DNA of 64,000 nt, from the NCBI GenBank assembly GCA_900319795.1, contig ONPU01000006.1, positions 1-64,000 of the forward strand. The letters run 5' to 3'. This stretch comes from an uncultured Eubacteriales bacterium (GTDB taxonomy: Bacteria > Bacillota > Clostridia > Lachnospirales > Lachnospiraceae). Position numbers and translations under genes: made by a program. The notes under the pieces are model-generated. The model saw only the letters and a program-made list of their open reading frames with translations, ran no database searches and was not told where the DNA came from. The first letter of the stretch is position 1. Each line of letters starts with the position of its first letter. Positions 47,325-59,622 of the stretch are shown in pieces.

Positions 47325-48224
47325 TTATCCATGATAATAGCGCTTCACGTGATCCCCGACAATCGCGGTACCGATTCCCTTGTCGGTAAAGATCTCAAGC
47401 AGCATGCAGTGCATGATTCTTCCGTCCAGAATATGCACCCTGCTCGTTCCGTTCTCGATCGCGGCGATGCAGTTCTGCAGTTTCGGGAGCATGCCTCCTC
47501 CCGCGTTTCCTTCTGCGATAAAGCGTCTGGCTTCCGAAACACTGAGTTCCGAAATCAGCGTAGAAGGATCCAGCGGGTTGCGGTATACGCCCTCAATATC
47601 GCTTAGGAAGACCAGCTTCTCCGCGCCTTCGCCGGCAGCAATCGCGCAGGCGGCGTCATCGGCGTTGATGTTGTAGGAGTGATAGTCCTCCTCTCCCATG
47701 CCGATCGGGCAGATCACGGGAACGAAATCCTGATCGATCAGCGTGTCGATGAGGCCGACGTCCACTTTGGTCACCTCTCCGACATAACCCAGGTCCTTCC
47801 CGGAATCCAGCATTTTCTTCCTGACCAGCATCGTGGCGCCGTCCTTGCCGGAGATTCCGCAGGCCTTCACGCCGTTTTCCTCCATATACTGAACCAGGCC
47901 CTTATTGACACGGTTCAGAACCATTTCGGCGATCTCCATGGTCTTTTCGTCGGTCACGCGAAGGCCGTTGATAAACTCAGGCGTTCCGCCCGAAAGCTTG
48001 ACCCACTTGCTGATTTCCTTGCCGCCCCCGTGTACGATGATCGGTTTCATGCCGACCAGCTTGAGCAGCGCCACGTCCTGGATCACGCTCTTTTTCAGGG
48101 CGGAGTCCTTCATGGCGGAACCGCCGTATTTGACGACGATTTTTTTGCCGGTGAATTCGCGGATGTAGGGCAGGGCCTCGATGAGGACGTCTGCTTTATG
48201 GATCCACATGTCCATATTTTCCAT
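47325..48224 (-). CDS. argB: Acetylglutamate kinase
   Basis: The 299-aa amino acid kinase has [11 protein letters not shown] (about 29-39), [19 protein letters not shown] (about 58-76), [20 protein letters not shown] (about 83-102), [30 protein letters not shown] (about 183-212) and [17 protein letters not shown]. It phosphorylates N-acetylglutamate. The N-terminal extension of about 25 residues is of the kind associated with arginine-sensitive hexameric enzymes, which fits a cyclic pathway with ArgJ; that is inference. A 284-bp inverted-repeat element lies upstream. Confidence 0.95.
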
Positions 48225-48264: not shown

Positions 48265-48350
48265 TTCTCGATCATGATACTTGTAACGCTCTTTCGGAAG
48301 ACCAGACCTGCCATGGATAATTCTGATTCTCGATTATGATGCTTATTACG
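48265..48350. repeat. Two imperfect direct repeats upstream of argB
   Basis: Two 24-bp copies, 48265-48288 and 48327-48350, both begin TTCTCGAT and end ACG and differ at four positions. They lie 41 bp and more upstream of the argB start. They could be operator sites or a duplication scar. Confidence 0.5.
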
Positions 48351-48366
48351 TTCTTCTGAGTTTCCA

Positions 48367-48650
48367 GCTGAAGATAATAGTATAAATAATTCAGACATCT
48401 GCACAAGTGATTAGTACTTCTTAGCTCGTCAGAAATTGTGTTGTTCGAAAAAATCACACTGTCTGAGCGCAGCGAGTTTGCGATTTTTTCGAACGGTTTT
48501 AGCAATTTCTGAGGAGGTTAGAAGTTCTTCTCTGCCCCCGATCTCTGATCGGGGGAGCCCCTCGCGGCTTTGAGCGAGTTCAGAGAAATCCTGAAAGGAT
48601 TTCTTCCACGGCGCGGAAGCCGTCTGAATTATTTATACTATTATCTCAGC
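48367..48650. mobile_element. MITE-like or structured-RNA element with 24-bp terminal inverted repeats
   Basis: The left end (48367-48396) and right end (48622-48650) are inverted copies: 24 bp match perfectly (starting GATAATAG, ending TTCAGAC), then a one-base bulge and GCTGA on both. Inside are a long imperfect hairpin (about 48414-48520, arms CAGAAATTG and TTCGAAAAAATC), a 9-bp stem CCCCCGATC/GATCGGGGG with a 3-base loop (48535-48555) and GAAATCCT-GAA-AGGATTTC. No protein is encoded. It sits between argJ and argB. A non-autonomous insertion element and a folded RNA are both possible. Confidence 0.7.
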
Positions 48651-48657
48651 GTCAAGT

Positions 48658-48702
48658 CTCAGCTTCAGTCCTCAGCTTCAGTCCTCAGCTTCAGTCCTCA
48701 GC
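48658..48702. repeat. 13-bp tandem repeat (about 3.5 units) at the argJ 3' end
   Basis: CTCAGCTTCAGTC repeats three times (48658-48670, 48671-48683, 48684-48696) and begins a fourth. It ends 4 bp before the argJ stop codon on the plus-strand map, between argJ and the inverted-repeat element. It is non-coding here. Confidence 0.8.
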
Positions 48703-48706
48703 GCCA

Positions 48707-49963
48707 TCACGACCGGTAGTCCGCATTGATATTGACGTACTCATGCGTCAGATCGCACCCCCACGCCGTCGCCGCCGCGTCCCCGAAATGGAGATCAACC
48801 GTCGCGATAATCTCATCGGAGCTCAAAATCTCTGTAGCCTTCTCCTCGGAAAACGGCTCCGCCACCCCGTCCTTCGCAATGGCGATCCTGCCGGCCGCGC
48901 TCTCGAATACGAGATCCACTTTCTCCGGATCAAACTGAGCGCCAGCATATCCGAGCGCGCAGAGAATACGTCCCCAGTTCGCGTCATGGCCCGCGATCGC
49001 CGCCTTGACCAAAGCGGAGGAAACAACCGAGCGGGCGAGCTTCTTCGCGTCCGCTTCGGAAGCGGCTCCTTCGACACAACATTCGAAAAGACAGGTCGCG
49101 CCCTCTCCGTCCTTCGCCATCGCTTTTGCCAGATGGGTGCAGACGAGCAACAGGGCGTCGCAGAAGGTTCCGAAGTCCTCATCCTCTTCGACGATTTCAC
49201 TGTTTCCGGCAAGGCCGCTCGAAAGGAGGAGGCAGGTATCATTCGTGGACGTGTCTCCGTCTACCGAGACCATGTTGAAGGTCTCCGGGACCACGGAAGA
49301 AAGCGCTTTCTGCAGAAGTCCGGCTGAAATCTTCAGATCCGTCGTCAGATACGCGAGCATCGTGCACATATTCGGATGAATCATGCCCGATCCCTTGGTG
49401 CACCCGCCGAGAACCGCCTCGGTTCCGTCTTTCAGGGAAAATGTCACCGCCGCCTCTTTTCTGACGGTGTCGGTGGTCATAATGGCCGTCGCGCAGTCAC
49501 GCCCGGCCTCAAGGGAATCCGAAAGCTTTCCGGTAAGCACGGATACGCCCGCGCAGATCTTGTCGATCGGAATCTGCACGCCGATCACGCCCGTAGAGCC
49601 GATCAGCACGTCTTCCTTCTGAATGCCATTGTATGCGGGATCCGCTTTTGCTAAAGAAGCAGCTGCCGCCTCAGCGGTCTGTTCGCACAGCCGCATGCCT
49701 TCCGCGCCGGTTGCCGCGTTTGCGACTCCCGCGTTGACTACCACCGCGCGTACATTCCTTCCGGAATAAACGATGTCCCGGTCCCAGACGACGGGTGCCG
49801 CCTTCACAATATTGCTTGTAAATGTCCCGGCGGCGGCGCATGGTACTTCACAGGCAATCATCGCCATATCCGCCGCGCCGTTTTTCTTGATTCCGGCAGC
49901 GCAGCCCGCTGCCCGGAATCCCTTTGCCGCGGTCACGCCGCCTTCGATCATTTTCATGCTCAT
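48707..49963 (-). CDS. argJ: Bifunctional ornithine acetyltransferase / N-acetylglutamate synthase
   Basis: The 418-aa protein has GFRAAGCAAGIKKNGAADMAMI at the start, NAGVANAATGAEG (about 76-88), STGVIGVQIP and the self-cleavage site KGSGMIHPNMCTMLAYLTTD (about 195-214). The Thr in CTML would be the new N-terminal nucleophile; many homologues have Ala rather than Cys before it. ArgJ recycles the acetyl group from N-acetylornithine to glutamate. It follows argG by 29 bp. Confidence 0.95.
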   Translation of the reverse strand: MSMKMIEGGVTAAKGFRAAGCAAGIKKNGAADMAMIACEVPCAAAGTFTSNIVKAAPVVWDRDIVYSGRNVRAVVVNAGVANAATGAEGMRLCEQTAEAAAASLAKADPAYNGIQKEDVLIGSTGVIGVQIPIDKICAGVSVLTGKLSDSLEAGRDCATAIMTTDTVRKEAAVTFSLKDGTEAVLGGCTKGSGMIHPNMCTMLAYLTTDLKISAGLLQKALSSVVPETFNMVSVDGDTSTNDTCLLLSSGLAGNSEIVEEDEDFGTFCDALLLVCTHLAKAMAKDGEGATCLFECCVEGAASEADAKKLARSVVSSALVKAAIAGHDANWGRILCALGYAGAQFDPEKVDLVFESAAGRIAIAKDGVAEPFSEEKATEILSSDEIIATVDLHFGDAAATAWGCDLTHEYVNINADYRS

Positions 49964-58865: not shown

Positions 58866-58946
58866 TGCGGTTAACAGGATTTGAACCTGCACGTTAAAAA
58901 CAACAGAACCTAAATCTGCCGCGTCTGCCAATTCCGCCATAACCGC
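58866..58946 (-). tRNA. tRNA-Leu (anticodon UAG)
   Basis: The minus strand folds as a class II tRNA with a long variable arm. Acceptor GCGGTTA pairs with TAACCGC, the T loop is GGTTCAAATCC and the anticodon loop TTTAGGT gives UAG. The discriminator is A; CCA is not encoded. Confidence 0.9.
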
Positions 58947-58994
58947 AAGGAGAGAATATAGTCCGGAGAATACCGGTTTTTAAAGAAACATTTA

Positions 58995-59020
58995 TCCGGC
59001 TTGCAAAAATGCAAGCCGGA
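58995..59020. other. Hairpin between tRNA-Lys and tRNA-Leu
   Basis: TCCGGCTTGC and GCAAGCCGGA form a perfect 10-bp stem with a 6-base loop. It lies between the last two tRNA genes. No U-run follows on either strand, so it may be a processing site or attenuator. Confidence 0.5.
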
Positions 59021-59034
59021 AAAACTGTATCCAA

Positions 59035-59107
59035 TGAAGCATCGGGGATTCGAACCCCGGACAACTTGATTAAAAGTCAAGTGCTCTACCACCTGAGCTA
59101 ATGCTCC
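59035..59107 (-). tRNA. tRNA-Lys (anticodon UUU)
   Basis: Acceptor GGAGCAT pairs with ATGCTTC and the anticodon loop CTTTTAA gives UUU. D stem GCTC/GAGC and T loop TTCGAAT are canonical. Discriminator A; CCA is not encoded. Confidence 0.96.
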
Positions 59108-59140
59108 ATATATTGAGTTCGCGGCAAAAACTGCCTGCAA

Positions 59141-59212
59141 CTGGGCTAGTTGGATTCGAACCAACGTATGCAGCAGTCAAAGTGCTGTGCCTTACCGCTT
59201 GGCGATAGCCCA
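59141..59212 (-). tRNA. tRNA-Gln (anticodon UUG)
   Basis: Acceptor TGGGCTA pairs with TAGCCCA, and the anticodon loop CTTTGAC gives UUG. The T loop is TTCGAAT. Discriminator G; CCA is not encoded. Confidence 0.96.
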
Positions 59213-59239
59213 TCGTTTCTTCAGCACCACATGCTGCAG

Positions 59240-59314
<75 letters not shown>

Positions 59315-59318
59315 ATAA

Positions 59319-59392
<74 letters not shown>

Positions 59393-59449
59393 ATATTATG
59401 AACGTCCTTCAGAGCTCGCACGAGTCGGATCATCTTCAGAACTGAAAAA

Positions 59450-59520
59450 AGCAGGTGATGGGAATCGAACCCACGTATCCAGCTTGGAAGGCTGGTGTTC
59501 TGCCGTTGAACTACACCTGC
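59450..59520 (-). tRNA. tRNA-Gly (anticodon UCC)
   Basis: Acceptor GCAGGTG pairs with CACCTGC and the anticodon loop CTTCCAA gives UCC. The T loop is TTCGATT. Discriminator U; CCA is not encoded. Confidence 0.96.
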
Positions 59521-59547
59521 ATTCTGGCTAATACGGTGAAAGACCAA

Positions 59548-59622
59548 TCGGGGTGACAGGATTCGAACCTGCGGCTTCCTGCTCCCAAAGCAGGCGCTCT
59601 AGCCAAGCTGAGCCACACCCCG
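59548..59622 (-). tRNA. tRNA-Pro (anticodon UGG)
   Basis: Acceptor CGGGGTG pairs with CACCCCG and the anticodon loop TTTGGGA gives UGG. The T loop is TTCGAAT. Discriminator A; CCA is not encoded. It is the first gene of the tRNA operon. Confidence 0.96.

Follow-up and report, generated by a model that had tools for sequence, protein, structure and literature searches.

An old hairpin element of 284 bp separates argJ from argB in an uncultured Lachnospiraceae bacterium. The explanation that accounts best for our observations, and which we consider likely as a whole, is that it is an old, probably immobile, MITE-like copy that was inserted between the two genes in this lineage, that its arms have been rewritten by template switching, and that its folded core is read by a protein. 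As a sequence within an operon it is an old MITE that has met an ordinary fate, and it belongs to an unusual family that was not found described in the literature matches listed. The family is regarded as MITE-like and non-autonomous on the basis of 23 dispersed copies in the genome of this bacterium and of target duplications in relatives. Its members are small and gene-less and occur in gut and rumen bacteria of the Lachnospiraceae and related groups.

Structure of the element

The window, i.e. the whole stretch of DNA that was analysed, is 64,000 nucleotides long, and a 284-bp palindromic hairpin element was confirmed in it at 48367–48650. Its parts are as follows.

48367–48650, plus strand: complete palindrome in its long form (window copy); the strand refers to the modelled core, which is antisense to the arg genes
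48367–48396, plus strand: left outer arm with a one-base bulge at A48371; private changes are matched in the right arm
48397–48407, plus strand: conserved ATCTGCACAAG at the left core edge; TCTGCACAAG columns invariant in 48/48 copies (alignment A1)
48460–48478, plus strand: hairpin tip; its unpaired motif TGT(C/T)TGAG...GCGAGTT is near-invariant and is conserved in 27 other genomes (27 copies)
48531–48610, plus strand: 80-bp structured module, missing in 18/23 own-genome copies and also found free-standing
48611–48622, plus strand: conserved GCGCGGAAGCCG at the right core edge (sequence reading and copy alignment)
48622–48650, plus strand: right outer arm (inverted-repeat analysis)

The arms (48372–48396 and 48622–48646) are 25 nt long and 100% complementary, and beyond the bulge four extra pairs are formed between 48367–48370 and 48647–48650. 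The original prediction had described the same ends as 24 perfect pairs plus five across the bulge, which is the same structure counted differently. When perfect arms at most 400 bp apart were considered, the longest inverted repeat was 25 in the window and 12–15 in 20 first-order shuffles of it. The predicted interior hairpins were all seen: nested stems at 48413–48438/48503–48528 (85% paired) and 48443–48458/48479–48494 (94% paired), and stems of 9 bp (CCCCCGATC/GATCGGGGG) and 8 bp (GAAATCCT/AGGATTTC) that were read directly in the element. No convincing protein is encoded, as had been stated; the only overlapping ORFs, flanking genes aside, are of 24–77 aa (20-aa cut-off). Terminal inverted repeats are present in the element family.

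Repeats are also found next to the element. Four tandem 13-bp units (CTCAGCTTCAGTC) at 48645–48709 begin at its right end and repeat its last bases, and a similar array lies at the right end of another copy (L002). To the left, two like stretches (CTCGATCATGATACTTGTAACGCTCTTTCGG and CTCGATTATGATGCTTATTACGTTCTTCTGAG) lie ∼65 bp apart within 48266–48360.

Insertion in the arginine locus

The gene order, with genes named using NCBIfam, is argG–argJ–element–argB–argD, all on the minus strand (argJ 48707–49963, argB 47325–48224), so the element splits argJ from argB as predicted. Thirty loci with argJ were compared, 29 of them also with argB, the own locus included. In 27/28 relatives the two genes are adjacent without the element, with 15–278 nt between aligned ends versus 485 nt in the own locus, and in 1/28 they have another arrangement. 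The core pattern (≤3 substitutions) was found in the own locus only, with no match in the 28 relatives. By these sequence comparisons, the argJ–argB insertion is particular to the lineage of this bacterium.

The original prediction had considered control of arg expression, and it is very improbable that the element is a regulatory RNA of the arginine operon. It does lie between argJ and argB, and would be transcribed with them if these genes form one operon; against this, the element is missing from the gap in the 28 relatives with both genes (27 adjacent, one rearranged), and further copies are located elsewhere in the genome. The orientations of the neighboring genes relative to the modelled strand, as given by long-ORF calls alone, are mixed (58 copies: −/− 22, −/+ 15, +/+ 13, +/− 8). 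Because the modelled core strand is antisense to the arg operon and copies occur in every orientation to their neighbors, there is no sign of arginine control. Arginine-specific regulation was rejected on the mixed orientations and on the relatives that have no element at argJ–argB, and nothing indicates that the element affects the arginine genes more than any other insertion would.

Copies in the own genome and the 80-bp module

BLAST identified 22 other copies in the draft genome of this bacterium (2.0 Mb), counts that are lower bounds since the assembly is 82% complete. The identity of these copies to the element is 86–97%, so none is near-identical, and no convincing target duplication was found at 21 own-genome copies. 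The copies are probably old, and mobility in this genome rests on relatives, because clear target duplications are missing here. At the ends of several copies, outside the bulge, there are degenerate GCCAAAAGT...ACTTTTGGC repeats. The outcome named in advance as speaking against the original prediction, a lone element without structural conservation in related genomes, was not observed: in addition to the 22 other copies, the core is kept across relatives.

The 80-bp module is composed of a CTGCCCCCGATC hairpin, followed by GCCCcTCGCGGC and a small hairpin. Among the 23 own-genome copies, the window copy and four others carry it, at least partly. It is also free-standing in the own genome (L025, G000:C9:78784–78860) and in two other genomes (G024 and G031). 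Loci in which it was noted are L025, L036, L042, L045, L050 and L056; in L042 it is enclosed by its own perfect inverted repeat of 21–23 bp.

Distribution of the family and of its core

BLAST matches were found in 9/36 other genomes of the same genus (those of G024 correspond to the 80-bp module, and those of G002 to 26-base pieces only), and a search against 24 genomes from other families gave no match. The exact core pattern recurs in 83 stretches of genome contigs. Almost all of these belong to MAGs of Lachnospiraceae or Clostridiales, many of ruminant origin, and single records named Amylibacter and Ruminococcaceae were also matched; the pattern was not found in viral contigs. A 20-base tip pattern, CTGTCTGAGCGVAGCGAGTT, is present in two IMG/VR contigs (L395 3318–3337 and L396 5487–5506).

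From 54 candidate copies, 48 were retained in alignment A1 (six with a truncated arm or composite structure were left out), and 37, together with two type-2 copies, in alignment A2. A covariance model of the core was built from 39 copies. It matched 41/397 Lachnospiraceae genomes from 37 genera (E ≤ 1e-4) and 17/392 genomes sampled from the order (1e-6), of which four belong to two other families; in both scans just seven candidates per genome were scored, and some matches are partial, e.g. six in G274 that span model positions 63–102 only. A fuller model search of four genomes gave 9, 10, 7 and 5 matches.

Hardly any variation was seen in the tip motif TGT[CT]TGAG...GCGAGTT across 27 genomes of 24 genera, each represented by one copy; in these copies, 41/46 core pair columns use three or four Watson–Crick types. 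The motif is also kept in the four genomes from other families, in three of which a G–C pair of the tip stem is exchanged. Two of nine matches in G178 are without the motif at the place tested. In another genome (G023), divergent core pairs, 135–210 bp apart, were observed at L043 1166–1656 and L091 6348–6764; each pair consists of one 147-nt and one 134-nt core type, and their tips differ.

Evidence for mobility

In RUG006 and its relatives (family B, from the rumen), 41/80 unique sites have flanking direct repeats, of which 27/41 are exact and 9–14 bp long (20 of these 27 are 10–12 bp); shuffled flanks gave a mean of 0.18 and a maximum of two such sites. In genus g71 (G110 and G424), 10/15 sites are flanked by 8-bp repeats with at most one mismatch (nine are perfect), and shuffles gave none; one further copy (two rows) was dropped as its ends could not be placed. 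The g71 elements end in GTTACAGTTCAC and are usually 289–290 bp long. In G035, the outer end pattern has 261 matches versus 22 for a control (≤3 mismatches), and 12/30 of the end-pattern loci that were read had no core at that end. A 48-bp remnant consisting of arms only was noted in G110 (L377, G110:C1:4437626–4437673), with ends GTTACAGTTCACG and flanks TCGACCAC and TCGACCGC, which are alike at 7/8 bases.

The family thus consists of dispersed copies without a transposase gene, with target duplications in relatives, and we infer that a DDE-type transposase encoded elsewhere may have moved the element. The end patterns relevant to such a partner are CAGGC..TTGCGAAAC and GTTACAGTTCAC. PF01609 was searched in seven genomes, and none of 30 loci from five of them contained a transposase with matching ends; no autonomous partner was found in G110 by end pattern (≤1 mismatch). 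Twelve end pairs 0.5–3.5 kb apart are located in seven loci. Beside a transposase in G025 (L205) there is a 20-bp inverted repeat that contains CAGGCTGTT.

Of the two identities that the original prediction had offered, the MITE-like element is supported by the 23 dispersed copies, the target duplications in relatives and the core-free argJ–argB gap, and is weakened for this genome by the lack of duplications and near-identical copies. The comparison with related genomes, proposed as the means of choosing between an element and an RNA, gave the signs of both, as the family moves and also co-varies.

Covariation of the arms

Among the older groups, arm sequence varies from copy to copy, and complementarity is retained within each copy. 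In G023, the arms are 92% alike within a copy versus 65% between copies, and the own right arm is the best, or joint best, partner in 9/9. In the own genome the values are 91% within a copy and 84% (left arms) or 83% (left versus other right arms) between copies, and the own arm is the best partner in 10/15 only. The arms of the RUG006 group are not copy-specific (0.76 within a copy versus 0.89 between left arms; own arm best in 4/23). In other genera, copy-specific outer stems are paired at 93% (50 copies), and at 97% in G110 (8 copies), both being upper estimates since local alignment picks well-matching stretches. Mismatches in the outer arms of 50 copies (1 of 51 was dropped) are strand-symmetric, with a GU:AC ratio of 36:41.

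Departures from the consensus were counted in two sets. In G424, a young family (seven copies, five with perfect 8-bp duplications), 10 were matched in both arms, 11 were in the left arm only and six in the right only, matched (10) and unmatched (17) changes thus being of roughly equal frequency; in G427 the counts were nine, two and four. Matched events are fewer than these matched cells, because some are common to two copies or may reflect alignment effects near arm ends. On an informal estimate, independent identical changes in both arms should be rare at such rates. The matched changes could also predate insertion, having occurred in the source copies. Unmatched changes are frequent, which speaks against strong selection for pairing. 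From these sequence patterns, we favor a cause at the DNA level, namely template switching between the arms: by changing template inside the hairpin, a polymerase would transfer changes between the two arms. Since this process would give the same pattern, arm covariation alone is no proof of an RNA. The insertion of elements into pre-existing host palindromes was also considered and was dropped, as in g71 the variable arm is enclosed by conserved GTTACAGTTCAC termini, which are in turn enclosed by the target duplications.

RNA or folded DNA

Unpaired motifs and bulges, which copying between arms should by itself erase, are retained in the core, and we propose that some protein reads the folded hairpin, as single-stranded DNA or RNA, through its unpaired bases. 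An alternative is that selection acts on the core as a structured RNA, trans-acting or belonging to a mobile element, and that the covariation of the arms is ordinary compensatory evolution of a basal stem. We consider this doubtful, although several observations speak for it. Changes on both sides were found in 40/64 pairs, and 95.7% of cells are paired, more than in any shuffle or slide (82.9% when shuffled and at most 48% when slid). The covariation expected of a conserved structured RNA is thus present, and template switching would yield the same. The unpaired tip motif is near-invariant, and GU:AC ratios were 42:6 for the outer stem, 57:21 for the inner stem without an invariant UG pair (40:21 without one further pair), 30:10 for the core of distant copies and 24:10 for core pairs at 80% Watson–Crick. 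For the arms the overall ratio was 58:16 (2 of 76 copies left out), with 15:3 in the own genome, 6:5 in G023 and 37:8 in the rest. Selection on RNA as the cause of arm pairing was initially favored on the 42:6 and 57:21 ratios. It was weakened because the early cells share ancestry, so that states are inherited, because pairs had been chosen with an RNA-aware program, and because the ratio is 36:41 in the outer arms and 32:25 in the core when pairs are chosen in a strand-neutral way. For the best-paired core columns (0.9 Watson–Crick) it is 4:6. Young copies tolerate many unmatched changes, copies occur in all orientations to host genes, and no Rfam family matches at gathering score. From the GU:AC counts, the arms need not be RNA and the core may be; for the core, the result depends on the choice of pairs. 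With respect to the folded RNA of the original prediction, the family does co-vary; outer-arm wobble and the matched and unmatched counts point to a DNA-level cause of the arm covariation, and the core may or may not be RNA.

The element may instead be recognised as a folded single DNA strand. Integron attC sites have variable paired arms and conserved unpaired bases, as does this element, and its one-base bulge is kept; the arms could then be of any sequence as long as they pair, and the enzyme would read unpaired bases. We regard this as unlikely. The present family has target duplications, in two size classes, which are not expected from attC recombination; moreover, the outer-arm mismatches have no strand preference, and young copies contain many unmatched changes.

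At gathering scores, Rfam identified seven tRNAs in the window and nothing else; these genes are clustered on the minus strand at 58866–59622. In 18 further loci searched at lax thresholds, only below-threshold matches were obtained, including one microRNA model over the element at L291. Kink-turns contain sheared GA pairs, and by analogy the facing GA/GA in the core might form such pairs.

Implications and comparison with known systems

A broader reading is advanced tentatively. A hairpin module with the near-invariant unpaired UGU(C/U)UGA...GAGUU may have spread through Lachnospirales in mobile elements with differing ends and duplication lengths (8 versus mostly 10–12 bp), as a selfish or useful part that a protein reads in the form of RNA or single-stranded DNA; template switching would meanwhile keep rewriting the arms. 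The elements that carry the module may have unrelated ends, or ends of common origin that diverged. If this reading is true, the family offers a natural experiment in which the covariation commonly accepted as proof of RNA structure is produced by DNA copying alone. Stem-arm covariation is standard evidence for functional RNA, and dispersed, partly recent hairpins allow matched and unmatched changes to be counted, which makes it possible to test directly in bacteria what part template switching plays in 'compensatory' change. A putative binding partner is suggested by the conserved unpaired motif. Because no Rfam family matches at threshold, a copy within a gene cluster, such as the present arginine operon, might be taken for a regulatory RNA.

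A precedent for the proposed mechanism is found in PMC8794818, in which template switching creates and maintains RNA stems and a single event rewrites one arm from the other, mimicking compensatory mutation. The rewriting of arm from arm and the compensatory appearance are the same here; that work reconstructed the histories of RNA genes, whereas our proposal concerns dispersed mobile elements. Among the literature matches listed, titles and abstract openings contained no description of the present element. The core could be among the 3161 candidate RNAs from human microbiomes, 250 of them palindromic, that are reported in PMC8040213.

The bcr1–bcr3 repeats of the Bacillus cereus group are described as MITE-like in PMC3446304. 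Like the present elements they are high-copy, intergenic, mobile by inference and often located in UTRs or between operon genes; compared by description, they differ in their hosts, and the copy-variable arm with a conserved core is a feature of the present family. Small mobile repeats, including ERIC, RUP, Correia and others, are reviewed in PMC2229807, and these are likewise short, gene-less mobile palindromes with transcribed structural motifs. The core reported here, which may differ from them in this respect, recurs across a bacterial family with differing ends and target-duplication lengths.
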